Shown here in pieces: positions 1-19,272 of a stretch of DNA of 32,275 bases. The position numbers and the translations under genes were made by a program. Source of the stretch: a virus. How positions within the stretch are numbered: the stretch's first letter is position 1; each line of letters starts with the position of its first letter. Location of the stretch: the IMG/VR virus record IMGVR_UViG_3300003599_000006, positions 2,997 through 35,271 of that record; one strand, written 5' to 3'. Under the pieces are notes generated by a model that saw only the letters and a program-made list of their open reading frames with translations, was not told the DNA's origin and made no database searches.

Positions 1-561
1 TGTTAATGCAGAAACACCAGATCCAAAGTGGTGCATTACTCCTTTAGGATTTGGAAAACTATTCTCTACAATTTCCAAACCCTTTTCAAGATAGTCATCA
101 TACTTGTCTTTCCATTTCATAGGAACATCATCACCACCACGGTTCTTAGTTCCTGCTAATTCGATTCCCTCTGCTTTATCAACACCTTTGCTTATCATAT
201 TATAAGCACAACATATAATAACTTCCCATTCAGCACCAGATGGTTCTTTTGACCCGTCACCAGTAGAGAATCCATTGCCATCTTTAGATAAATTTAAATC
301 TTTTAACCCTTTAACTGAGTAAGAATTTTTTAGTATAGATTCCATCTCTTTAGTCTTAAAGAAATTATTTTCCATGTATTTGATTAATGGATCATCTGCT
401 TCTAACTTTTTTATTTTTTCACCATCTTCAGTTTTAAGTGTACCAGCAATTGCTTTATCAATAAAGTCCGCTCGATTGTTTCGTTTAAAGAATTCGAGAT
501 AGTTTAGCATTATGGATTCTGATAATACTTCTTCTGTGTAAAATGACCTGAATGACTTCAT
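1..561 (-). CDS. Putative capsid-targeted internal protein, unknown function (3' end outside window)
   Basis: The reading frame is open from an ATG at 559-561 to the left window edge, so 187 codons are visible and the C-terminus is missing. The protein begins MKSFRSFYTE, the same leader seen on six neighbours, and contains a second possible gp21-type cut site (L-S-E before S at about residue 15). The rest is charged and soluble with no membrane segment. The visible end contains a GG-D-D stretch and an M-H-H-F-G-S-G stretch. I do not recognise the domain. It follows the NMN-adenylyltransferase-like gene by 45 bases. Known of the family: T4 internal proteins carry such leaders. Inference: this is another packaged cargo protein. 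Confidence 0.75.
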   Translation of the reverse strand, partial: MKSFRSFYTEEVLSESIMLNYLEFFKRNNRADFIDKAIAGTLKTEDGEKIKKLEADDPLIKYMENNFFKTKEMESILKNSYSVKGLKDLNLSKDGNGFSTGDGSKEPSGAEWEVIICCAYNMISKGVDKAEGIELAGTKNRGGDDVPMKWKDKYDDYLEKGLEIVENSFPNPKGVMHHFGSGVSALT

Positions 562-606
562 TAAAGTTTCCTTGTTTTTATGTAATTATAGATTGTCAAG
601 AGTTAT

Positions 607-1164
607 TTACAAAATGTCTTGCATCTTATCAAACTCACCCCAAAGTTCTTTGGGCATTGACTTCTTGAATGTTTCAATATCATCATCTTTAATAGCGGTT
701 CGTACAATAGTAGCAGAAGTGACTCTAGGAGTTTCTTTCATTGTGACCGTGATCTGTTTATCTTCGGGCATCTGTTTATTGAATGAATCAATTTGACCTT
801 GATACCCTTTGAATCTATCCGCACCCGCATAGATAGCAGTTACTTCATTACCGTCCTTTCTTATTAGAGAAATGATATCAGGCACATATCCAGTAGGAAC
901 GACTATAACCTTTGCTTTAGTTTTTAACTTCTTTAAGAGTTCTAATTGATAAGTTGTATCAAATGGATTCTTGTTTTTATCTAGTGAAGTCTTAGCACCT
1001 TTTACTAATGCAACAATAGGATTATTCATCATCTTAATAATAGCAAGATGTGCTTTATGAACGGGTTGCATTCTTCCAAGGAATAGTTCTACAGATTTCT
1101 TTTGGATTGGTAGATAATCTGTAGGATTAAGTGCTTCTGTTATAAATTCTATGTATGTTTTCAT
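607..1164 (-). CDS. Capsid-targeted NMN-adenylyltransferase-like (cytidylyltransferase superfamily) protein
   Basis: A 185-residue protein that begins MKTYIEFITE followed by A, a textbook I-x-E/A prohead-protease site. Behind it (about 24-160) is a nucleotidyltransferase of the HxGH superfamily: G-R-M-Q-P-V-H-K-A-H at 30-39 is the HxGH-type loop, and R147 with S150-A-T-I-V-R155 fits the C-terminal ISSTxxR-type motif. The family joins NMP or NTP to NMN, pantetheine phosphate or similar; the closest flavour by eye is NadM/NadR-like NMN adenylyltransferase, which makes NAD+. Substrate cannot be fixed from motifs. The gene lies downstream of the methyltransferase and upstream of another leader-bearing gene. 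Inference: injected enzyme that adjusts host NAD or a related nucleotide. Confidence 0.75.
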   Translation of the reverse strand: MKTYIEFITEALNPTDYLPIQKKSVELFLGRMQPVHKAHLAIIKMMNNPIVALVKGAKTSLDKNKNPFDTTYQLELLKKLKTKAKVIVVPTGYVPDIISLIRKDGNEVTAIYAGADRFKGYQGQIDSFNKQMPEDKQITVTMKETPRVTSATIVRTAIKDDDIETFKKSMPKELWGEFDKMQDIL

Positions 1165-1179
1165 ATTGCCTTATGGTAA

Positions 1180-2451
1180 TTAAATTACGCAGTCTAAGTA
1201 ATTTTCTGACTTGATTTCTATATATTTAGCATTATTTTTTCTAAAGACCCATACAGGTTCAATAAAGGTTTCCCTCATTTCTTCGGTGTTTGGTCTTGCC
1301 ATCATACGCATACCTATCTTTCCAATGTAATTGCTTTGATCGAATGCAGCAAATGTATCAACCATTTCATCACATAATTTATGTCGTTTGCCAGTTTTAC
1401 TTGATGGTTCTATAATATTGATCATCATAAACCCATCGGATTTAATAGTACCCCAAACGAGTTCAGTCACTTTAAAAAAGAAGTCATATTTCCATTTATC
1501 GAAACTATCATATCTTGACCAAGATTGATCATCAATACAATCTGTAGATTCACCATAAGTTTCAGTTGAGAAATAAGGTGGTGATGTAAAATAAAAATCA
1601 AATGTATTTTGATATAGATTCCAATCAACATCTTCAGATGGTTTTCTCCATATCTTCACAGTTTTTTTACCGACACATTCAAAGTAATCTTCTGATTCGG
1701 TTAGTACTGGATTAGATCCTAGCACGGTTTCATACATAATACATTGTTCTTTATAGACTTCAAAAACATCTGGATTAGGATCACACCCAACATATAATTC
1801 AGTAGAAGGTGTAGCATAGAACCCTGCTAATCTATCACCCCATCCACAAGAAGTGTCTAATACATTTACGGCATTATGTTTTTCATATAATGCTTTAGCA
1901 ACAGTAGGTTTAAATTGTGTTGCTGTATATGTTCCTAATCTAAATGCTGTAAGGAAACTTCGTCTTGTTAGACCAGAGTCACCCATGACACCTTCTCTCC
2001 ACCAAGTCCAATTCATAGATGCTAATAGTTTTTCATCATTCCAAATTTCTGTTGGTGCTTTATTTTTATTAGAACCACACCCCAATCTATTACTTTGTTG
2101 GAAGTAGTTTGATATGATATTGAATGAGTGACTTTTATCAATAACCCCTAGAGGTGCATCATAGTATGGATACTTGTAATCATATCGTTCTTTCACATTA
2201 GGAAAGTCTTTATAGTAAGATATCATAGAGGTAGAGCAAAACCTTCTAAATGTTGCAATGAAAGTATGTCTATCAAATTTCCGGAATGGGAATCCTATTT
2301 CATTTTCATGCACATATCTTGCCAATGCAACTCTTATATCATTTTTCTCATAGGTGTTTTTAAACTTTATCCATTCATCATTAGATAAATTAGGGATACC
2401 ATCTTCATCACAGTTATTTTTAAAGTATTCAACAATTTCACATAATTCCAT
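1180..2451 (-). CDS. DNA methyltransferase (SPPY-type, N4-cytosine/N6-adenine family)
   Basis: A 423-residue protein. Residues 197-206 (V-L-D-T-S-C-G-W-G-D) form the AdoMet-binding motif I, followed by an acidic V-G-C-D-P motif II at 221-225, and F-T-S-P-P-Y at 288-293 is the catalytic motif IV of amino-methyltransferases. Motif I before motif IV suggests the gamma/zeta-type order. The roughly 190 N-terminal residues probably serve target recognition. No cognate nuclease is adjacent, so it is a solo methylase. It has no capsid-targeting leader although the genes on both sides do, and it has its own early promoter (2490-2518). Inference: it modifies phage DNA during replication, perhaps against host restriction. 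Exact base and target are unknown. Confidence 0.8.
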   Translation of the reverse strand: MELCEIVEYFKNNCDEDGIPNLSNDEWIKFKNTYEKNDIRVALARYVHENEIGFPFRKFDRHTFIATFRRFCSTSMISYYKDFPNVKERYDYKYPYYDAPLGVIDKSHSFNIISNYFQQSNRLGCGSNKNKAPTEIWNDEKLLASMNWTWWREGVMGDSGLTRRSFLTAFRLGTYTATQFKPTVAKALYEKHNAVNVLDTSCGWGDRLAGFYATPSTELYVGCDPNPDVFEVYKEQCIMYETVLGSNPVLTESEDYFECVGKKTVKIWRKPSEDVDWNLYQNTFDFYFTSPPYFSTETYGESTDCIDDQSWSRYDSFDKWKYDFFFKVTELVWGTIKSDGFMMINIIEPSSKTGKRHKLCDEMVDTFAAFDQSNYIGKIGMRMMARPNTEEMRETFIEPVWVFRKNNAKYIEIKSENYLDCVI

Positions 2452-2489
2452 TCAGTAGTACCCTCTTTCAATTTATCTAATTATTATAT

Positions 2490-2518
2490 ATTATATCATA
2501 GAGTAGTTACTATGTCAA
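2490..2518 (-). promoter_or_regulatory. Early sigma70-type promoter of the solo methyltransferase
   Basis: On the minus strand TTGACA (2513-2518), 17-base spacer, TATAAT (2490-2495). Both hexamers are perfect. It lies between the stop of the 385-residue cargo gene and the methyltransferase start. Confidence 0.85.
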
Positions 2519-2522
2519 CATA

Positions 2523-3680
2523 TCATAATATCTCCAACTCCTTTAATTGAGCGACTACTTTGTTGATAATATTCTTCCTATCTAATGTCAATCCACTAGG
2601 TTTATGAATACGTGTCTTCTCTTTACGAATACCATACAATAATATCCGAAACAGATCCTCTGCATACCAATACCTAGATATCAACTTCCTCATACCAGCA
2701 GGAATTAAAGCAGCAGATACATTCGAATATCTGTTATCCAGCACATCATCCTTATAATCTTCAACTTTACCCATATCCTGTGCAACTTTAAAAATGATAG
2801 AACCAGTTAATGCTGATATGAATTGAATATATCTTGCATCCTTACTTTGAAATGCCATAACCTTTGCCATGCTTCTCTTGTTGTTCAAGATACTAATAAT
2901 AGCAACATTAAGATGTTTATAAGCAGTGCTAGAAATCAACTCATAGAAATCATTAGATTTATCACCACTCTTATCCATAATAGTAACGGTGAACATATTA
3001 TCAGTCAATTTATATACTTGACCAGACTCAGTATAAATCACGATACCTTCAATGAAATTACCAGCAAGAAATGCATGAGCAGGTTTCAATGTAAACACTG
3101 ATAACATTTCTGCCGCAAAATCTTTACCACTAATAACATCAGGGTTCTCTACTAGTTTATTAATCAAATCTTTTTGTTTGGTATTCAATAGTCCAGAATG
3201 AATAACAGGTGGTGGTGTGATTTCAAGTATATCAGAAACCTTATCATATAAAGGATCATTAAGAGGTAATGATTTACCACCAAGTTTAATCCAAGAAATA
3301 ATCATACCATTCCTTGGTGGTGTATCCCATTTAATGATTGTGCTGATCTTGGGGTTATAGATTTCTGTTGCAATAATAATATCGTTTGGAAGTTTTGACC
3401 AATCAGTTGTTTCAAGGTGTGCAATAAACGTTTCACGTATATCAGAACCTGCTCTAACAATTTTGTCAATCTCTTGTTTCATTTCTCTATTGTAGTACTT
3501 CAATCCAGTAGATTCTTTTTTAACAATCATACTAGAGGTATCAATTTTCAGATTGATATACACTTTATTATTCAGTATATCATCAAGAAATGCTTGACCT
3601 TTTTTATTGAATACCTTGAATAAATGATCAAGTTCTAATAGTAAAAACTTCTCTGTCACATATGTTTTAAATGATTTCAT
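2523..3680 (-). CDS. Capsid-targeted protein, possible RNA/DNA ligase-like nucleotidyltransferase
   Basis: A 385-residue protein that begins MKSFKTYVTE. After the leader a pattern resembling polynucleotide ligases can be read: K45-I-D47 in L-K-I-D-T-S-S (motif I, K-x-D/H/N-G, here T instead of G), an acidic A-T-E-I-Y segment at 104-108 (motif III-like), E211-G-I-V-I (motif IV, very ligase-like) and K224 in V-Y-K-L-T (motif V). In real ligases K of motif I is the AMP-linked lysine. The missing Gly and the weak motif III leave the call tentative; it could be a related adenylylating enzyme or an inactive fold. It sits 5 bases downstream of an ART-like cargo gene, so it is probably in the same late operon. 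Confidence 0.5.
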   Translation of the reverse strand: MKSFKTYVTEKFLLLELDHLFKVFNKKGQAFLDDILNNKVYINLKIDTSSMIVKKESTGLKYYNREMKQEIDKIVRAGSDIRETFIAHLETTDWSKLPNDIIIATEIYNPKISTIIKWDTPPRNGMIISWIKLGGKSLPLNDPLYDKVSDILEITPPPVIHSGLLNTKQKDLINKLVENPDVISGKDFAAEMLSVFTLKPAHAFLAGNFIEGIVIYTESGQVYKLTDNMFTVTIMDKSGDKSNDFYELISSTAYKHLNVAIISILNNKRSMAKVMAFQSKDARYIQFISALTGSIIFKVAQDMGKVEDYKDDVLDNRYSNVSAALIPAGMRKLISRYWYAEDLFRILLYGIRKEKTRIHKPSGLTLDRKNIINKVVAQLKELEIL

Positions 3681-3685
3681 TATTA

Positions 3686-4144
3686 CTACCCCTCGAATAT
3701 TCCATAAGTTGATATGCCATCTTCCTTAATACTAACAGCATCATAACCAAATACTTTTAAGAATCTTACAATAGACTCTTTTGATTTATTGTCTTTCCAA
3801 TACTCCATAGTTTTAAGTTCGTTATTTCCAAAGAAATCTTTAAAGACTTTCATTTCAGATCTTGCAACATCCATATCAAGTTTTGATCGGTCAGCACCCT
3901 TGATAGCCATACCGGCTAAAGAAGTCGGATTAAGTTTGAAACTGTCGTGGGATAAATTCAAGACACTTTTCAAGTTGAATGTCTTGGAATCCACTTTACC
4001 ATTTTCTCTTGCTTTAGCGTAACCAGTAGCCAATTCTTTATCAGTTGACCACCATGTCATAAACTTTGTGTCTGACCCTTTACCATGACCTCTATAAAGT
4101 GTCACCTTGGTACTTTCTGTCACAAATGTTTTAAATGATTTCAT
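3686..4144 (-). CDS. Capsid-targeted ADP-ribosyltransferase-like protein A
   Basis: A 152-residue protein that begins MKSFKTFVTE followed by S. The mature part starts with V-T-L-Y-R-G-H-G-K-G (Arg18 in the Y-R-G strand), then T-W-W-S-T-D-K-E-L-A (30-39) with a Tyr three residues later, and ends with K-E-D-G-I-S-T-Y-G-I (140-149). Y-R-G, S-T-x-x-x-x-A and a late acidic loop are the order expected of mono-ADP-ribosyltransferases of the R-S-E type, although the final catalytic Glu cannot be assigned safely. It is paralogous to the next gene upstream (4141-4728) and their ATG and TGA overlap. T4 Alt is a known precedent: a packaged ADP-ribosyltransferase trimmed by gp21. Targets are unknown. Confidence 0.65.
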   Translation of the reverse strand: MKSFKTFVTESTKVTLYRGHGKGSDTKFMTWWSTDKELATGYAKARENGKVDSKTFNLKSVLNLSHDSFKLNPTSLAGMAIKGADRSKLDMDVARSEMKVFKDFFGNNELKTMEYWKDNKSKESIVRFLKVFGYDAVSIKEDGISTYGIFEG

Positions 4145-4728
4145 GATAGGATTCCGTATGTAATGACACCATCTTCCTTTGCCAACAGTGCAGTGATTCC
4201 CATCTCTTTAAGATATGCTATAACCTTTTCACTACCGACTTTATGTAAGAACTTGGGGAGTGCATTAGTTGCAGATCCTCCACCGAAATGATATACAGCA
4301 GCATCATATAATTCTTGTGCTTTCTTACTTTTAGTCTTCTTCACCGCATCCAATATATCTTTCACTGTTCCTGTGCGATTGATCTCTCCTATGTCTGCAA
4401 TTTTATGAGACTTCGGGTTGAACTTCATCTCAGAAACTTCCTCACCATATTCCGATGCCAACTCTTTATCAGGGGAAATCCAAGTGATCCCTTTGTGATT
4501 TGGTTTATTGGGATTAGCACCCTTTGCATGTCCTCTATAGAATTTCTGTTCAGAGAGGTCTTGGTATTTAAGAAGATTCGATTTATATGACATTGCCTGA
4601 GATCCAGTGGTTGAAGTATTAGTCCACTTTGGGAATAACTTTTCCATCTCACCAGATAATCTTGCACCCATTTCTGCACCAGATTCTTCAGCAAGAACTT
4701 CGTTTATAAACTCTTTATAATTTTTCAT
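4141..4728 (-). CDS. Capsid-targeted ADP-ribosyltransferase-like protein B
   Basis: A 195-residue protein that begins MKNYKEFINE. The leader is followed by a spacer of about 50 residues absent in its paralogue, then F-Y-R-G-H-A-K-G (63-70), T-W-I-S-P-D-K-E-L-A (82-91) with Tyr94, and the ending K-E-D-G-V-I-T-Y-G-I (184-193). The shared blocks show that this gene and 3686-4144 arose by duplication. In this copy the ST of the S-T-D block is S-P. The ADP-ribosyltransferase reading rests on the Arg in Y-R-G and the W-x-S-x-D-K-E-L-A block; the catalytic Glu is not certain. The start overlaps the stop of the J-domain gene by ATGA, so translation is probably coupled. Confidence 0.65.
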   Translation of the reverse strand: MKNYKEFINEVLAEESGAEMGARLSGEMEKLFPKWTNTSTTGSQAMSYKSNLLKYQDLSEQKFYRGHAKGANPNKPNHKGITWISPDKELASEYGEEVSEMKFNPKSHKIADIGEINRTGTVKDILDAVKKTKSKKAQELYDAAVYHFGGGSATNALPKFLHKVGSEKVIAYLKEMGITALLAKEDGVITYGILS

Positions 4729-5726
4729 TTTATTGACCCTCTTGCATCGTTCTTCATTTTAGTTATAATAGTATCAACTTGTTTCATTGTTTTCTTACGA
4801 AATGATAACAATATATCTAGAGTTTCTTCAGACTCTGCTAAAGAGTGTATATGCCTGTACTCAGTATCAAATGCATAACTACCTCGTCTAACACCAAGAT
4901 CATTTAATGACCAAAATGGTGTTCTCATTATTACAGTTCTAAAGATTCTTAAGAAACCATCTTTAACAGGGATTAAGTAAGTGTCTGTATTCCAATTCTC
5001 ACCTTTAAGTTCTTTCTCAATTGCCAATTTAAAGTCTGCTCGTGTCATCTTACCAGAAACTCCTGAAGCAATCTTTTTCATCTTAGCTAAAGGAAATGAT
5101 TTCTTTGGATCAGATAGTAGGATGTGATCATTTTTCTGATCCCAATCTCTTTGTGCCATTTTCTGTTTCTTGCGATTAGCATAACCAAACGCAGTAACTT
5201 GAATGGTGTATGATATTGTTTCAGAGTTAGAAAGTCCGCCTTTCTCTTGCCGACCGAATAGGTACGCAAGGGCATCAAAGTCAAATGCTATCTTACCATC
5301 AGCAGTTTCAAATCTAACTTGGATACCAGCATGGGATGGTGCGTAATCTCCTACACCATCCATAACTTTAACAATAGCATTAAAGTCATGACCTAAGTGT
5401 TGTTTAAAGTAGTCTTTAAATGCCTGTACATCAAACTTACCAGAGATATCAGCAGCAATGTCTTTTGCTTTTGCTTGCCATCTAGCTTTGTTTTCGGCTT
5501 TATTATATGTATCAGTGCCACCTTTAGTTTCACCCTTTAGGGTTTTCCATGCAGCATTGACTTTCTTCATAACCTCAACATCACCACCTTTGTCAGGGTG
5601 ATGAATCATAGACATCTTTTTGTACGCTAGTTTGACATCAGCTGCACTGTAGTCACCAGTCAGACTAAACAATACTTCTGATTCTTGTTTAGTTAGTTCT
5701 GTTAGAAATGATTTAAACGATTTCAT
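4725..5726 (-). CDS. Capsid-targeted J-domain (DnaJ-like) protein
   Basis: A 333-residue protein. I start it at the ATG at 5724-5726 because this gives MKSFKSFLTE, has a GGAG ribosome site inside the end of the previous gene and leaves one base after that gene's TAA; a start 14 codons earlier would destroy the leader. Residues of about 16-65 form a J-domain with the diagnostic H-H-P-D-K (HPD at 43-45). The remaining roughly 260 residues are soluble, without Cys-rich zinc repeats or a Gly/Phe region, so this is a J-domain fused to an unknown client or effector domain. J-domains recruit and stimulate Hsp70. Inference: an injected co-chaperone that redirects host DnaK. Confidence 0.8.
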   Translation of the reverse strand: MKSFKSFLTELTKQESEVLFSLTGDYSAADVKLAYKKMSMIHHPDKGGDVEVMKKVNAAWKTLKGETKGGTDTYNKAENKARWQAKAKDIAADISGKFDVQAFKDYFKQHLGHDFNAIVKVMDGVGDYAPSHAGIQVRFETADGKIAFDFDALAYLFGRQEKGGLSNSETISYTIQVTAFGYANRKKQKMAQRDWDQKNDHILLSDPKKSFPLAKMKKIASGVSGKMTRADFKLAIEKELKGENWNTDTYLIPVKDGFLRIFRTVIMRTPFWSLNDLGVRRGSYAFDTEYRHIHSLAESEETLDILLSFRKKTMKQVDTIITKMKNDARGSIK

Positions 5727-5727
5727 G

Positions 5728-6579
5728 TTATTTAATCTCCGTAGGTAGGGGATATCCTTTATGTTCAATATCAGTTTTAATCAATGCAATGATATCAGTT
5801 TTATGTGCTTTCCATAAGAACTTTGGTGAGGACATTGCTTTCCAAATATCAGACCAAGTTAGAATATCTGCTGCTTTAAATGTTGGTCCCAATAAAACAT
5901 CAATAACAGATTGTGGATCTTTAGCAATAAATTGTCTTGAAACTTCTTTACCATTCTTTAAAATCTTATCTTTCTTACCTTTCTTGCTGAATGATACATC
6001 ATGTAAACCAGAAGCAAAATGTAAAAGTTTACGTTTCCACTCAATATCATTTCCTGATCTTCCCGCAAAATGTGATATTGCTGATAAAGCAGAGTTACGA
6101 TATAATCCTTTGAAATTGCTTTCCCATTCAGCAGGAGAATAAAATATCCATTCAGACCATGATAAATTATCAGATAACATTAGATCAACTTGAACTCTAT
6201 CACCTTCTTGTAACCCATCAATGTTCACGATAGGGTACGCAAGCGATACAATGCCTATACTAGAGAGGTCACGAACCGAATCAGAGACTTTACCAGCAGC
6301 ACTAAGGACACCCCTGAAAATCGCTTTAGGATCGTTTGTCTTGAACTTCTTACCAAGTGATTCGATAAACACAGCCATATCAATATCACCAGAATGTCCA
6401 CCAGGTTTCTTCTTTCCTGTAGAACCTAATAGTCTAATATCATCAGTAGTTAAACCTAACAACGGTAATAGTTTTTTATAGATATCTGCCATTGTGGCAG
6501 CAACATTTTCTTGATTGATATGTGTAACGTTCTCAACGGCATTACCGCCTTCAACGATAAATTGTTTAAATGTAATCAT
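5728..6579 (-). CDS. Capsid-targeted nucleotidyltransferase-fold protein
   Basis: A 283-residue protein that begins MITFKQFIVE followed by GG. It shows the pol-beta-type nucleotidyltransferase signature: L-L-G-S-T-G (50-55), then D65-I-D67 after a Gly/Lys-rich loop, and the third acidic residue D132 in V-Q-V-D-L-M-L. All three metal ligands are present, so activity is plausible. Family members add nucleotides to tRNA, RNA, proteins or small molecules; the substrate here is unknown. It is the first gene of the leader-bearing series, 35 bases downstream of a T4 late-promoter box (6614-6621), consistent with synthesis during virion assembly. Confidence 0.7.
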   Translation of the reverse strand: MITFKQFIVEGGNAVENVTHINQENVAATMADIYKKLLPLLGLTTDDIRLLGSTGKKKPGGHSGDIDMAVFIESLGKKFKTNDPKAIFRGVLSAAGKVSDSVRDLSSIGIVSLAYPIVNIDGLQEGDRVQVDLMLSDNLSWSEWIFYSPAEWESNFKGLYRNSALSAISHFAGRSGNDIEWKRKLLHFASGLHDVSFSKKGKKDKILKNGKEVSRQFIAKDPQSVIDVLLGPTFKAADILTWSDIWKAMSSPKFLWKAHKTDIIALIKTDIEHKGYPLPTEIK

Positions 6580-6613: not shown

Positions 6614-6621
6614 TATTTATA
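6614..6621 (-). promoter_or_regulatory. T4-type late promoter for the internal-protein operon
   Basis: Minus-strand TATAAATA, the exact T4 late (gp55) box, lies 35 bases upstream of the first leader-bearing gene and reads into the compact gene series 6579 to 2523, in which neighbours overlap or are 1-5 bases apart. Confidence 0.7.
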
Positions 6622-7665: not shown

Positions 7666-8109
7666 TTACTTTTTATTTTCAAAGAATTGATCTAAGTTCA
7701 ACTTCTCACCAAATGAGTAATCATAAGTCAATGCATCTGCACAAACAATATTTTTCTCTACAATAGTTCTAAACTCTTCGTGACCACATAACAACCTATC
7801 CCTAGTTACCAATACGTTATCTAGCATCAAGTCAACACCATATGTAGTTTGTAGAGACTGCTCAAGAGAACTACCATTTTCAATCTTCCTGATTATAACT
7901 TCCCCAAGGAACTGACCATCACCACAACTTGGATCTAGGAATGTCCTCATAGTATCAGTAAACTTTTCAATTGGGATTTTATCAAGAATCTCTCTGACCA
8001 AAGGTGTCGGGGTAAACACCTCACCAGTTGACTTGACTCTAGATTTCTCACGGGCAACACCAGACATGTATTCACGATCACGGATATGCTTTATTACATT
8101 TTCTATCAT
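7666..8109 (-). CDS. N6-adenine methylase, AdoMet-binding part (split enzyme)
   Basis: A 147-residue protein holding only the cofactor half of an N6-adenine methylase: T-G-E-V-F-T-P at 28-34 (motif X region) and F-L-D-P-S-C-G-D-G at 57-65 (motif I), then Y-G-V-D (motif II) and C-A-D-A-L (motif III). It ends before any NPPY. The NPPY-containing part is encoded by the gene just upstream (8120-9196), 10 bases away. The usual order in gamma-class enzymes is motif I before NPPY; here the gene order is reversed. Inference: the two polypeptides together make one methylase. Alternatively this is a decayed remnant. Confidence 0.75.
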   Translation of the reverse strand: MIENVIKHIRDREYMSGVAREKSRVKSTGEVFTPTPLVREILDKIPIEKFTDTMRTFLDPSCGDGQFLGEVIIRKIENGSSLEQSLQTTYGVDLMLDNVLVTRDRLLCGHEEFRTIVEKNIVCADALTYDYSFGEKLNLDQFFENKK

Positions 8110-8119
8110 ATGGGGTTCC

Positions 8120-9196
8120 TTATTTTCCTTCGATTAGATTTATTTCTTCCTCAGTTAATCCGAACTCAGCATAGATTTCTTCGTCAGTCCACTCTCTATT
8201 TACATCTAGAACGGGTATAGTATGTTGTCTTTGAGCAATAAGGAATACAAGTTTTGTATTCCTATAATTTTCGCCAATGTATTGAAATAATTTCGATGTA
8301 TTCCATAGATCTCTAATCTTGGTCAGTTCTTCTACACCACCTGTGATGTAAAAATAAGCAGGGGAAACTTCTTCTGTTGTTATCAGCAAGTTCTTGTCGG
8401 ATACACAGAACTTCTTGTAGTTGTTCATACAAAGTTTCAACGAGTTATCGATCACCTTGCTAGAATACATAACCTCGTGTGCTTTACTATTCCATATAAC
8501 AGGGATAGGGTGGGATTCTGATTGTATAGAAACAACGTCAGACTTCCTTCTACCTTGCCTCTTTATGGTGTATCTAGAGTGATCGCTATTGATAAACTTG
8601 CTGACGATACTATCTCGAGTCGTTGATTCTAACATCATACCAGCTGTATATTGTACAACCTTTGTTTCGCCAGATGCCATCACGAACGTTGTAGGATCCT
8701 TAGATATCGTGTTTTTCAATCTCCAAGAACATATCTTCACCCCAACATTGAAATGCTTATCGGTGGTTTCATCGTAACTGATAAATGCTTTTTGCTCGAG
8801 TATCTTTTGAAGTTTATTAGTGGTCTTGTTTACGATCTTGTTTGACAACGATCCTTGCACGATAGTCCGAGGGCATATAAACATTATCTCACCACCATCT
8901 ACCAACAATCCTTCGATACATTTGATCGCAATGACATTCCATAACTTTATGTTATCTGATGCTCCTTGATACGGTGGATTTCCTACTATAACGTCAAATT
9001 GCATATGATCTAGTTCTCCTTCTAATAACTGTTGTACTGTATATAGTGTCGCTTGAGGCATGTAGTCGCCCATGATTAAATCTGCTTCCTTTGCCACCAC
9101 CACAATCAGATTTGACTTATCTTTGTATTCATTGTATTTCTGTTGTAACTCACTTAGAAACACTTGGCCACGGTAAATCAACATCACATTTTTCAT
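8120..9196 (-). CDS. N6-adenine methylase, NPPY catalytic and target-recognition part (split enzyme)
   Basis: A 358-residue protein. F-D-V-I-V-G-N-P-P-Y-Q-G (67-78) is the motif IV of Eco57I/type I HsdM-like N6-adenine methylases; V-D-G-G-E-I-M-F-I-C-P at about 96-106 fits the region that follows it. The first 65 residues contain no AdoMet motif I. The long C-terminal part (about 180-350), rich in aromatic and basic residues, looks like a target-recognition domain. Its missing cofactor half lies in the next gene. It has its own promoter at 9239-9267. Context with the helicase upstream suggests a restriction-modification-like unit. Confidence 0.75.
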   Translation of the reverse strand: MKNVMLIYRGQVFLSELQQKYNEYKDKSNLIVVVAKEADLIMGDYMPQATLYTVQQLLEGELDHMQFDVIVGNPPYQGASDNIKLWNVIAIKCIEGLLVDGGEIMFICPRTIVQGSLSNKIVNKTTNKLQKILEQKAFISYDETTDKHFNVGVKICSWRLKNTISKDPTTFVMASGETKVVQYTAGMMLESTTRDSIVSKFINSDHSRYTIKRQGRRKSDVVSIQSESHPIPVIWNSKAHEVMYSSKVIDNSLKLCMNNYKKFCVSDKNLLITTEEVSPAYFYITGGVEELTKIRDLWNTSKLFQYIGENYRNTKLVFLIAQRQHTIPVLDVNREWTDEEIYAEFGLTEEEINLIEGK

Positions 9197-9238
9197 AATA
9201 TAGGTCTCTCTCTGTTGGATTATTTATTTTATATAGAT

Positions 9239-9267
9239 ATTATACTATAGAATATCCTATAAGTCAA
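9239..9267 (-). promoter_or_regulatory. Early promoter of the split methylase
   Basis: TTGACT (9262-9267), 17-base spacer, TATAAT (9239-9244) on the minus strand, 43 bases upstream of the ATG. Confidence 0.75.
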
Positions 9268-9275
9268 CCTTTGTT

Positions 9276-11453
9276 TTAATCTTCAAGACCTAAGAAAATC
9301 TGTATTTTTCTAAGTGTCACAACTTCGTTTTGTGATTCTGCATCTTGGAAGATACGATCAACAACCTTTTTATATGCTTCATTTTCCAAATTTCTTTCAA
9401 ACACTTCTTTATCAAGACGAGTGTGTTTTTTCCAAGATTCATTACTCACTGTATCAATCATATCCAATGAGACAATATTGAAATATTTTTTACATAACAC
9501 TGGAAGAACTTCAAGAATAATTCTCATTGTTTTGATATATTCTAATCTTTGTTTATCAGACAACACAACTTCTTTCTTTTTATCGTCTTCCTTTTTTCCT
9601 TCTGAGATTTTTGATTCTGGTTTAGTCGAATCAGATTTGGTGATTGCTTTCGATTGTCTTGTAGATTTACCAATCGATATATCTATTTCAATGTCAGCAT
9701 CCCATAATTTGGCATTGATATAACCTTCTTGTCTTGTCACTTCCATCAAACCATCGATCAGTTCGTTTATATCCAAAGTAAGTTTTTCTGTTGGTCCTTT
9801 TTCATTCAGAACGAATGCATTGAAGGTATTGAAATCCTGCCAGAAACGATGACCCTTTGAGATCAAATTATCATTGCTAGAATTTTCTACATTATCGTTT
9901 TCGATAAGGAACATATCTTCAGCAAGACCGATACGCTCAAAACTGGCACGGATAATGTTAGCAGAATCCTTTCCTTCTTTCCATGTCAAACAACGACTCA
10001 TCTTTTGGTAATCAGCAGAGGATATAGCACCGTCTTTGAAAATAACAACACGATCAATCTCAGGGATACTGAACGATCTACTTGCCATTTGGCGGCTGAA
10101 GATAACCAATTTACGAGTATCGTTCGACTTGATCATTTCTTTCAATACTTTATTCACATGACGTTCAGCATCATTATTTGAAGTTTCTTTAGACGTAAGC
10201 AACATTGTTTTGATAGTGGATGAACGTGTATCACTATAATGTTCAACGAACTGGTCAAGGTGTGTATTGTTTTCTGTATTGATAAAGATCATAGTTGCTT
10301 CATTATCAGTCAGATCTAGTTTACAGTTCTTGCCAACGAACTGGTCTACATAGTCTGCTAGATTGCTATGGTGATCAGCATCGGCGAACGATTGTGTGAT
10401 ATTCAATTTCTTTTCATCAGCAGACATTACTAATTGGATGTCTGTAAATTTGCGATGAACGACCATTTCACCCTTAGCCATTTCAATCATATCTGTATAG
10501 TTCATATGCCCAAAAAATGTATTTTCTTCGGTGCTTTCTTTACGGATAATCTTGTTTCCTTTGTTGATGTTTGTTCCAGACATTACAACGATTTTGACGA
10601 TGTTACATTTCTCTTGGATGGCTTTGTGTTTAGCACGACTGTTCTCAGTATGAGCACCCATATCAGCCTCGTCAGTAACAAGGATAACATTGTGATGGCT
10701 TTGGATTTTTGAACTAAGATTCGTCAATACCGAGTCATCACCTTGGTATAAAGTCGCTTCAACAATCTCGAAATCATATCCAACATTTTTATAAGAACTT
10801 ATGAAAGAAGCGTCACTGCCTTTGCTTTTTGAAGAAATTACCAACACAAGGTTATCATACTTTTTTGTTAGTTCTTGGGCATATTCTAGCATCAAATATG
10901 TTTTACCGAATCTAGGGCATAGACTCAACAAGTTGTAATACTTATCAGATGATAACATTTTAGATAGAATGGTTCTTTGTGGTAATCTAAGACTGATAAC
11001 TCTTCTTGCTTTTTTGCCTAGAAGAGAATTAATTGCTTTGTTTTTTGCATCATTTAAACGAGTCTCAAGAGCAGCAAGAAAATCTTTATTTTCAAGCAGA
11101 CTATCTTCATAAGGCAGATCCAGACTTTCAACAATGTCTTCGATACGAACCCAAGTCCACTCTCCGCGTTTACGGTCTTTTCTTGTATATGCTTCAAAGT
11201 TGGGGTATTCGTGAATAACATTACGAATCTTATCGTCAAGTTTTACATCACTGTTGTTATCAACAGATATTTCACTAACAATAATAAGAGTCGAAGTGGT
11301 AGACGAAATATCTTGATCTTTTACTCGACCTTTGGTGTCTATTAATGTTTGACCATTCTTTACTTTCAACCATCCTGGTTTTTGCTTTTCAGAATAAGCA
11401 AATTCAGTTTCACAAGTGTAAGCATATTGGTAGTTTATTTTATTTGTTTTCAT
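9276..11453 (-). CDS. SF2 helicase, restriction-enzyme-like, possible N-terminal GIY-YIG-like region
   Basis: A 725-residue protein. I start at the ATG at 11451-11453; an upstream in-frame ATG would translate the promoter repeat. Superfamily 2 helicase motifs are clear: P-R-F-G-K-T (180-185, motif I), T-D-E-A-D (260-264, motif II), M-S-G-T (291-294, motif III) and Y-Q-K-M-S-R-C (482-488, motif VI). The 120 N-terminal residues have P-G-W-L-K-V followed by G-R-V-K-D-Q (42-47), a D-K-I-x-N-V-I-H-E segment and G-E-W, a pattern recalling GIY-YIG/T5orf172 nucleases, though the K-I-G is disturbed. A Lys/Glu-rich linker lies near 620-640. With the methylase downstream it resembles a type III/ISP-like restriction enzyme. 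Confidence 0.7.
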   Translation of the reverse strand: MKTNKINYQYAYTCETEFAYSEKQKPGWLKVKNGQTLIDTKGRVKDQDISSTTSTLIIVSEISVDNNSDVKLDDKIRNVIHEYPNFEAYTRKDRKRGEWTWVRIEDIVESLDLPYEDSLLENKDFLAALETRLNDAKNKAINSLLGKKARRVISLRLPQRTILSKMLSSDKYYNLLSLCPRFGKTYLMLEYAQELTKKYDNLVLVISSKSKGSDASFISSYKNVGYDFEIVEATLYQGDDSVLTNLSSKIQSHHNVILVTDEADMGAHTENSRAKHKAIQEKCNIVKIVVMSGTNINKGNKIIRKESTEENTFFGHMNYTDMIEMAKGEMVVHRKFTDIQLVMSADEKKLNITQSFADADHHSNLADYVDQFVGKNCKLDLTDNEATMIFINTENNTHLDQFVEHYSDTRSSTIKTMLLTSKETSNNDAERHVNKVLKEMIKSNDTRKLVIFSRQMASRSFSIPEIDRVVIFKDGAISSADYQKMSRCLTWKEGKDSANIIRASFERIGLAEDMFLIENDNVENSSNDNLISKGHRFWQDFNTFNAFVLNEKGPTEKLTLDINELIDGLMEVTRQEGYINAKLWDADIEIDISIGKSTRQSKAITKSDSTKPESKISEGKKEDDKKKEVVLSDKQRLEYIKTMRIILEVLPVLCKKYFNIVSLDMIDTVSNESWKKHTRLDKEVFERNLENEAYKKVVDRIFQDAESQNEVVTLRKIQIFLGLED

Positions 11454-11526
11454 AATATATTTCCAAAGTTTCTCAAAAGTATGACTCATTATCCCATGTA
11501 TCGACTTCCTTGTCAACACTTATTTT
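11451..11526 (-). repeat. 76-bp early-promoter repeat, copy 1
   Basis: Runs from the helicase ATG to the TTATTTT box upstream of the -35. Copies of equal length lie at 13839-13914, 21538-21613 and 27893-27968. Copies 1 and 3 differ at only about five positions. Confidence 0.85.
11488..11516 (-). promoter_or_regulatory. Early promoter of the helicase gene
   Basis: TTGACA (11511-11516), 17-base spacer, GATAAT (11488-11493), on the minus strand. Just outside the stop codon (11526-11528) of the upstream gene. Confidence 0.85.
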
Positions 11527-16785: not shown

Positions 16786-17842
16786 TTTCCTCCGTTTGTA
16801 AAGCAGTAATATCAATATCACCTAAAATAGATTTATAACCAATAGTGAAATGACTCTTAACGAATGCAGAGAAATCCGTTTCTTCTAATATAGATTTCCA
16901 GAAACCTTCGTTCATTGTATCTTTTTCTCTTACCTTCGGATCAAGCAACTCTCCAGTAGATTTATCAACTTTACAATACCAACCATTGGAAGGCTTACCA
17001 ACATAATTGCCAGCCAGAGCAATATCAAGCAACCCAGAGTAACGCTGTATACCGCCTTCCCAAGAAACTGTAATAGGAATTTTTGACTTCTCTTTAACAT
17101 ATCGTGATTTCTCTACGTTGATTATGAAATGATACCCTTGTATTTCTGTGCCTTTCTTATCTTGTTGTCTACCAATAATCCATACGTTATCCGCACTGTA
17201 CATTACACCTGTACCACCTGATACAACTGGTTTTGAATACATTTCAAGAGTTTGATATGTATGATTCACGGCAATCATTGGAATATCTTTCATTGTCAGA
17301 TAAGGAGTTGACATACGAAATAGACCTTTCAATGCTTTTGCTCTTGACATATCAGCGACTGCTTTTTCATTTAAGGCATCATCAAGTTCTTTCTTAGATG
17401 CTAAGTTACCAAGTGAATCAATTACAACAACAACTTTATCTTCTCTTGTAATCATTTCTAACTGATTGATTAGATCAAACTTCAACTCTTCTACGTTAGT
17501 AATGGGTGTATGTAAAACTCTTGAAGTATCAATATCGAATGATTGAAAATATGATTGTGGTGAACCAAACTCTGAATCATAGAACAACATAACAGCATCA
17601 GGGTATTTCTTTAGATAAGCAGATGCCATTACTAACCCAAAACTTGTTTTGAAATGTTTAGATGGTCCTGCTAATACCGTTAATCCTGGAGTCAAACCAC
17701 CTTCAAGTGACCCAGATAATGCAACGTTGATCATTGGTACATCAGTTGGAATCATATCCTTATCAGTAAATAACTTTGATTTTGATAATACTTCTGTAGA
17801 TTTTAGTTTAGAATTCTTTTTTAGTTTGTCCATGATAGACAT
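16775..17842 (-). CDS. uvsX: Recombinase UvsX (RecA-like)
   Basis: A 355-residue protein from the ATG at 17840-17842 behind GAGGTG. Walker A is A-G-P-S-K-H-F-K-T (58-66), the UvsX-specific form of the P-loop (T4 has G-P-S-K-S-F-K-S), and V-V-V-I-D-S-L-G-N is the Walker B region. V-N-H-T-Y-Q-T and V-S-G-G-T-G loop motifs are also present. UvsX forms filaments on single-strand DNA and drives strand exchange and recombination-dependent replication. It has a promoter at 17879-17907. Confidence 0.95.
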   Translation of the reverse strand: MSIMDKLKKNSKLKSTEVLSKSKLFTDKDMIPTDVPMINVALSGSLEGGLTPGLTVLAGPSKHFKTSFGLVMASAYLKKYPDAVMLFYDSEFGSPQSYFQSFDIDTSRVLHTPITNVEELKFDLINQLEMITREDKVVVVIDSLGNLASKKELDDALNEKAVADMSRAKALKGLFRMSTPYLTMKDIPMIAVNHTYQTLEMYSKPVVSGGTGVMYSADNVWIIGRQQDKKGTEIQGYHFIINVEKSRYVKEKSKIPITVSWEGGIQRYSGLLDIALAGNYVGKPSNGWYCKVDKSTGELLDPKVREKDTMNEGFWKSILEETDFSAFVKSHFTIGYKSILGDIDITALQTEENDV

Positions 17843-17878
17843 ACACTTCACCTCTTTATTTAATTAATAATAAGATTT

Positions 17879-17907
17879 ATTATAACACACTTTCGATTAA
17901 AAATCAA
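17879..17907 (-). promoter_or_regulatory. Promoter of uvsX
   Basis: TTGATT (17902-17907), 17-base spacer, TATAAT (17879-17884) on the minus strand; the -35 overlaps the 3' end of the dCMP deaminase gene. Confidence 0.7.
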
Positions 17908-18334
17908 CAGTTTTATAATTCACTCCTGCCTCATCAAACATACGTTTAGACCAAGACCATTCTTCATCCCAATTAGTAGGAGTATCCTTATATAACATAA
18001 CAACATTCTTTATGCCTACTTGAATAACACCTTTAGCACAACTAGAACAAACAGGTAATCCATAAACATATAAAGTAGCACCATCCAAAGATGTTCCAGT
18101 AAAAGATGCATTGAATATACAATTCATTTCTGCATGAACCACCATTTTATATTTAACTTCTCGGTTATCATAGTTCTCTGGGTTATCATTAACTCCTCTC
18201 GGAAATCCATTATATCCCTGAGCAAGAACTTGACCTTTAGATCCAATCACAACCGCACCGATTTGTTTAGACGGATCTTTGCTCCAAGTAGAAACCTCTT
18301 TTGCTAATTTAATATATCGTTTATCCCATTTCAT
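17897..18334 (-). CDS. cd: dCMP deaminase
   Basis: A 145-residue zinc deaminase. H67-A-E69 supplies the zinc-bound His and the proton-shuttling Glu, and P-V-C96-S-S-C99 the two zinc Cys ligands, the exact order of the dCMP deaminase family. It converts dCMP to dUMP, feeding ThyX (14422-15075). The G-Y-N-G-F-P-R block near 40-46 is typical of dCMP deaminases. It follows the primase-like gene by 11 bases and its end overlaps the uvsX promoter. Cytoplasmic. Confident by motifs. Confidence 0.93.
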   Translation of the reverse strand: MKWDKRYIKLAKEVSTWSKDPSKQIGAVVIGSKGQVLAQGYNGFPRGVNDNPENYDNREVKYKMVVHAEMNCIFNASFTGTSLDGATLYVYGLPVCSSCAKGVIQVGIKNVVMLYKDTPTNWDEEWSWSKRMFDEAGVNYKTVDF

Positions 18335-18345
18335 TCATTCACCTT

Positions 18346-19272
18346 TTACATATTTTTATAAATAAATTCTATTGCACCTTCTGCTTCTTTATTAAGTGGT
18401 CTATTACCATACCATCCACCAGTTTCCACATCTAATTCTTTACATAATTCTGCAATTTCCATTGCTGTTATTGGATACTTCTGTTTCACTGCATTACCCG
18501 CAGTTGATACCATAATCTGATACATTTTATGATACCACCCAGTAGAACTAATTGTCCTATATTCAGCAACTAATTTCTTATTGATAAATGGACAATTTCT
18601 ATATGAATTCCATGATATAGTTCTATTATCCATTTGATCCTTTCTATGTTGTAAAATCATCTCCTGCATACTACTTGGCAATCTATCAAAGAAGTTATTA
18701 CCCTTTGGTACAAGTGTAGGATGTTTATCTATTAAAGCATAAGGATCAATATACTGACCAACATTAGTAAATATAAAGTTATTAGCATTTTTATAATCAG
18801 CAGGTACATAATACATTCTAGACAGATCTTTAGTTTGTCTATCTCCAATAGATTCCAATTCACTATTCAACGCATACCAAAATGCTTTTATCTTTGATGC
18901 TTCTACATGACATTTCAAAGGGAATATCAATCTAAACTTTGGAAACTCCTTTGTAGATGATGCTGTAGAATAACACACATAATACCAATCACCATACTTT
19001 TTTGCTAAGGTTTCTTTTAGATCACCTTCAATTTGATGATCATCAACATCTACTGCTGCCCAACCACACCAAGATATAACAGAATCATTCTTTCTGGTTG
19101 TATCTTTTTTAAATGAAGCAGGTGAAATCAATGGTGCATTTCTTTTACCTACTCTAGGGATATTTGATAACTTATATAAGAACTTCTCGAACTCTGGGAA
19201 GTCAGAGAAGTTCATTACCTTGTCAGTTTTGTTGTCGAAAATTGATTTAAATAAAGTTAGGGATAATGCCAT
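18346..19272 (-). CDS. AEP-type (prim-pol-like) primase candidate
   Basis: A 308-residue protein. I prefer the ATG at 19270-19272, preceded by AAGGA, to one four codons upstream. A-A-V-D-V-D-D-H (73-80) matches the metal-binding motif h-D-h-D of archaeo-eukaryotic primases, Y-S-T-A-S-S follows, then P-K-F-R-L-I-F-P-L with an Arg near 114, and S-R-M-Y-Y-V-P, an order seen in phage and plasmid primases of this superfamily. There is no Toprim or zinc finger, so this is unlike T4 gp61 (DnaG-type). It starts inside the 3' end of the MazG-like gene. The likely role is primer synthesis for gp41-driven replication, or a prim-pol activity. Confidence 0.6.
   Translation of the reverse strand: MALSLTLFKSIFDNKTDKVMNFSDFPEFEKFLYKLSNIPRVGKRNAPLISPASFKKDTTRKNDSVISWCGWAAVDVDDHQIEGDLKETLAKKYGDWYYVCYSTASSTKEFPKFRLIFPLKCHVEASKIKAFWYALNSELESIGDRQTKDLSRMYYVPADYKNANNFIFTNVGQYIDPYALIDKHPTLVPKGNNFFDRLPSSMQEMILQHRKDQMDNRTISWNSYRNCPFINKKLVAEYRTISSTGWYHKMYQIMVSTAGNAVKQKYPITAMEIAELCKELDVETGGWYGNRPLNKEAEGAIEFIYKNM

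Follow-up and report, generated by a model that had tools for sequence, protein, structure and literature searches.

Which reaction would a phage adenylyltransferase catalyze when it carries the leader of an injected head protein, and which partners would it serve? The gene in question, NAT (positions 607-1164, minus strand; ATG start, 185 amino acids), lies in a stretch of 32,275 nucleotides, hereafter the window, which is part of a 35-kb IMG/VR fragment (G000) from a T4-superfamily phage, with DNA polymerase gp43, clamp loader gp44, the sliding clamp, UvsX, a DnaB-type helicase, and ThyX identified. The window's own genome is incomplete; genomic context was taken from the longer contigs G001-G003, which reach 71 kb and carry the NAT gene in identical form. 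On balance we consider it somewhat probable that NAT is part of a virion-packaged nucleic-acid-end repair kit, in which it forms an adenylyltransferase arm, and not primarily part of an NAD+ cycle.

NAT, a HIGH-superfamily (cytidylyltransferase-like) adenylyltransferase, has a solid predicted fold and intact nucleotidyltransferase motifs. It matches Pfam PF01467 (CTP_transf_like) at E = 1.1e-5, scoring 26.1 bits against a cut-off of 21, and its AF2 model (pLDDT 89.8) matches NadM, PPAT, and NadD structures in Foldseek. The HxGH-type loop, H36-K-A-H39 (1048-1059), is of the form HxAH, with HxGH in close relatives, while the C-terminal motif of the SxTxxR type reads S150-A-T-I-V-R155 (700-717); both are conserved in the NAT family. 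The nucleotidyltransferase assignment that the earlier note drew from the HxGH-type loop and the SATxxR motif is thus confirmed by family membership, fold, and conservation. In L012, the same phage has, besides NAT, another NAT-like gene that appears degenerate (ARFNSTTVAH) and adjoins a P-loop-kinase-like gene (L012:18593-19210 and 17616-18596).

The first ten residues of NAT, MKTYIEFITE (1135-1164), are identical at eight positions to the leader MKTYQEFIAE of T4 IPII/IPIII. Y4, F7, I8, and E10 all coincide with IPIII. In such capsid-targeting sequences (CTS), targeting is reported to depend on positions 4 and 7 and processing on positions 8 and 10 (PMC9026906); gp21-type cleavage is predicted after E10 (I-T-E). 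The capsid-targeting leader proposed in the earlier note therefore holds. Residues 1-10 are poorly ordered in the AF2 model (pLDDT 51) and the leader is absent from the homologues of Xanthomonas phage X1 and Stenotrophomonas phage Marzo, as expected of an added tag, by which NAT is probably packed into the virus particle.

The leader is shared by the genes around NAT. A CTS regular expression matches 7 of 60 window ORFs, all within the minus-strand block 1-6579. It matches 0.105% of random peptides and none of 198 internal Met positions, a background rate that is indicative because the pattern was written after the leaders had been seen. Seven of the eight consecutive genes in this block bear CTS-type leaders, the exception being a methyltransferase gene (1180-2451). 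Besides NAT, they comprise an RNA-ligase-like gene (LIG, 2523-3680, MKSFKTYVTE), a Pol-beta-superfamily-type nucleotidyltransferase gene (POL, 5728-6579, MITFKQFIVE), two ADP-ribosyltransferase (ART)-like genes (3686-4144, MKSFKTFVTE; 4141-4728, MKNYKEFINE), a DnaJ-domain gene (4725-5726, MKSFKSFLTE, phrog_13942), and the N-terminal part of a CTS-led protein (1-561), whose full length of 490 amino acids is seen in L013:5706-7178. This last protein has a homologue in pelagiphage HTVC008M and contains TPKTDMFIGNTHISLKK, which may be a PD-(D/E)XK-like motif. Two further short genes lie just past the window (L013:3831-4355 and 5056-5346), with leader variants MTKTYKDFIQEA and MSYKEFIQEA. The fragmentary contigs searched contained no prohead protease, portal, or other head genes, and the Pfam controls matched nowhere on them either. 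One known model for this block is the set of head-packaged, injected T4 proteins IPI-III and Alt, whose leaders the window leader matches at key residues. T4 has a known packaged and injected ART; the window cargo, unlike that of T4, consists mostly of nucleotidyltransferases, and its packaging is predicted.

Does NAT, then, make NAD+? It would do so as an injected NMN adenylyltransferase whose product either supplies the ART-like cargo or offsets defences that deplete NAD+, a reading that we regard as rather unlikely. Among curated families, archaeal NMNAT and NadM come closest to NAT, which shares with them GRMQPxH, xNPF, and S[AG]TxxR; NMNATs are the best PDB matches of its profile, and NadM 2qjo tops the Foldseek list, with PPATs close behind. 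Yet NAT falls below all curated cut-offs, reaching 26.9 bits against 127 for PRK01153 and 20.4 against 181.2 for TIGR01527, and it lacks a Nudix or NadV partner. X1, Marzo, and contig G004 encode NAT plus a separate NadV and NadM-Nudix pair elsewhere, with the NadM-Nudix proteins identified at E = 1e-87 to 1e-110, and LR756500 presents a weaker version of this pattern. NadV, where present, adjoins a different, true NadM; no NadV (PF04095) was found on the 71-kb contig and no NadV-type gene in the complete genome of Campylobacter phage CP21. In a maximum-likelihood tree the NadM proteins stand apart from NAT (99/89), which argues, along with the separate NadV and NadM-Nudix pairs, against NAT as the phage's NAD+ salvage enzyme. 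Where a phage genome encodes a true NadM-NadV pair at another site, an NMNAT-like gene in it should not be taken as a sign of NAD+ salvage.

The ART half of the proposed cycle fares no better. One ART-like protein reaches 18.4 bits with ART-PolyVal against a cut-off of 31.2; the other, 28% identical to it, has no Pfam match, and a profile of the ART-like neighbours found no ART in the PDB. The earlier note had placed ART cargo next to NAT: the two CTS-led genes do share its cluster, and in L021 a CTS-led ART-like gene overlaps the NAT gene, but the ART calls are sub-threshold and the window genes lie 2.5-3.6 kb from NAT, not adjacent to it. Of the 24 NAT lineages sampled, just 2 have ART-like genes alongside NAT, as against 17 with some ligase-like gene (the CP21 fusion counted), so that an NAD+ cycle with ART as the partner of NAT finds little backing, and as the main function it is weakened both by these linkage counts and by the separate NadM-NadV pairs.

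Another close relative is the phage 'cytidyltransferase' family phrog_3041 / phrog_395, with members in S-PM2, HTVC008M, and Atu_ph07, among others. It has the same fold as NAT and the signature (G)RFxPxTxGH, GSDR, and SAxxxR; it provides the best PHROG match (4e-15) and the best viral fold matches, with NAT aligning end to end and over more columns than to NadM. Many members are fused to other domains. The window NAT is set apart by its HxAH loop and by its leader of the T4 IP type.

The gene most regularly found with NAT encodes an Rnl2-type RNA ligase. The window LIG carries the Rnl2-type fold and motifs I, III, IV, and V: motif I reads KIDTS, motif IV IEGIV, and motif V includes K224, with K45, E106, E211-G212, and K224 all present and G48 of motif I replaced by T. 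Its best Foldseek matches are T4 Rnl2 (E = 2.4e-5, at a low TM-score of 0.30) and archaeal RNA ligases, obtained with a model of mediocre quality (pLDDT 64). PF09414 (RNA_ligase) is matched by 9 of 20 LIG family members, the window LIG not being among them. A SMODS match (E = 0.028) was set aside given the ligase fold match, and a profile scan of genome contigs found no bacterial homes for LIG.

An ATP-dependent DNA ligase model is also matched, by 4 of the 20 members, raising the alternative that NAT, the ligase, the Pol-beta enzyme, and the nuclease-like protein, once packaged, mend nicks or ends of the incoming phage DNA and not RNA. Sharing the head with the genome would bring them into contact with DNA, and a nuclease-like motif is present in the neighbouring protein (1-561); because the best structural and Pfam matches of LIG are RNA ligases, we consider DNA an improbable target.

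Other loci touch on the ligase fold. In L069 (7999-9985) and L120 (6127-8113), an apparent intein (PF14890 Intein_splicing, E = 1.7e-7) splits the ligase gene right at motif I, and in HTVC008M a DUF6267 protein (PF19782; L146:8764-9996) with a KWDG...EGY motif pair, suggestive of a ligase-like fold, has its gene close to those of a kinase and of a NAT-type 'cytidyltransferase'.

Among 11 sampled ligase lineages of the window clade (70% clusters, IMG/VR), NAT is on the same strand and no more than 7 kb away in all 11, is adjacent or fused to the ligase in eight, and forms one ORF with it in five, counts in which linkage is possibly enriched since the ligase profile seeds include some NAT-fused members. 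Records of 56-462 kb hold roughly one copy each of LIG and NAT, placing this closeness far from chance. Outside the 11-lineage set, close NAT relatives (X1, Marzo, L026, L028, L031, L033, and L044) are preceded or neighboured by genes of other ligase-like clades; profile comparison aligns two of these clades to LIG with 96% and 84% probability, compared with about 1% or less for control pairs. NAT-ligase fusions fall at no fewer than three separate positions (at least three) of the maximum-likelihood tree, and CP21, with NAT fused to a ligase-like domain, adds a further architecture. The conserved partner of NAT is thus an Rnl2-type RNA ligase, in an association that is not universal: 7 of the 24 NAT lineages have no ligase-like gene nearby, and no NAT lies within 6 kb of the megaphage relatives of LIG (L142-L145, 636-735 kb; four loci in one divergent clade with an EDIQGS-like motif I).

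POL joins NAT and the ligase in many lineages, including 8 of the 11 ligase lineages, and is found with NAT in 17 of 26 lineages, or more fairly 16 of 26, as the NAT match of L058 is a true NadM. NAT-POL fusions also exist, and Lak-A2 has POL with neither NAT nor LIG. The window POL displays GS...SGDID...VQVDLM, conserved across 20 relatives, and was recognized by these Pol-beta motifs, with no Pfam family match; the candidate assignment as RlaP was set aside, there being no Pfam Pol-beta/RlaP support. These fusions bear on the view that NAT adenylylates another metabolite or a ligase-unrelated protein and that linkage merely reflects a shared late operon of CTS-tagged cargo. Clusters do collect unrelated genes (ART-like, DnaJ), some NATs have no ligase nearby, and the phage 'cytidyltransferase' relatives of NAT, though widespread, have no substrate assigned to them; set against the repeated NAT-ligase and NAT-POL fusions in separate lineages, we judge this view very unlikely. 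By tying so widespread a family to RNA ligases, the repeated fusions make the substrate question directly testable.

With an Rnl2-type ligase as the usual and sometimes fused partner, NAT more likely belongs to an end-repair kit than to NAD+ recycling. The T4-type leader would take NAT into the phage head, from which it would be delivered together with the DNA. The core of the kit would be the Rnl2-type RNA ligase and the Pol-beta-type nucleotidyltransferase: after entry, the latter would restore lost nucleotides and the former would seal broken strands, most plausibly those of tRNAs cut by host defence nucleases, a target that we infer. NAT would supply ligase-coupled adenylylation, transferring AMP from ATP onto a 5'-phosphate. 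The acceptor could be a small molecule, with NMN yielding NAD+, or the end of an RNA or DNA, yielding an App-ended intermediate. If the kit is packaged, host-inflicted RNA damage would be repaired before any phage gene is expressed. No tRNA genes were found on the contigs searched.

RNA-ligase and RlaP Pol-beta repair pairs in large phages are already described in passages of PMC7824862, and they likewise set an RNA-ligase-fold enzyme beside a Pol-beta-type nucleotidyltransferase. The window kit differs from them in that its POL falls outside the Pfam RlaP family, it includes a HIGH adenylyltransferase as an extra or fused component, and its genes carry capsid-targeting leaders. The passages of PMC7824862 and PMC9503650 used here mention neither a HIGH enzyme nor capsid targeting, and any priority of the window kit is tentative.

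How closely NAT and LIG might cooperate is suggested by a subgroup (L114, L116-118, and L015) with a degenerate ligase. All its members have lost the ligase lysine (K to Q/N) and the motif III glutamate (E to Q), and most the motif V lysine (K to R), while the NAT motifs are intact; L121 is partly degenerate. Either NAT may have taken over the adenylylation step here, or the ligase domain may now act as a binding module. Because ligase residues are lost and NAT motifs kept, the two proteins could constitute a split ligase, injected from the virion as a ready-made repair kit, in which NAT would make AppRNA or AppDNA ends and LIG would perform only the final joining, even in the lysine-less L114 and L116-118. 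Chemically, NAT would act as an NMNAT does, but on the 5'-phosphate of a nucleic acid rather than on NMN. We hold this specific division of labour to be doubtful, with a low probability.

The one gene of the block without a CTS leader, the DNA methyltransferase-like gene at 1180-2451, is inserted between LIG and NAT and has its own perfect sigma-70 promoter upstream (TTGACA-17-TATAAT, 2490-2518, minus strand), suggesting early expression rather than expression as cargo. Nine perfect TTGACA-16/18-TATAAT promoters occur on the minus strand between 2490 and 28349 (0.09 expected), several of them in a repeated element of 69-98 nt with six copies; they are probably early promoters. Upstream of the first CTS gene by 35 bp, TATAAATA (6614-6621, minus strand) is a possible T4-type late promoter, a tentative call as the window contains this motif about as often as chance predicts. 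A PADLOC search for known defence systems returned only weak methyltransferase and unrelated matches. Farther along the window, at 7666-11519, a large ORF without a family match follows a pair of methyltransferase-like ORFs (N6_Mtase, Eco57I type), and the three may form a modification or restriction cluster.
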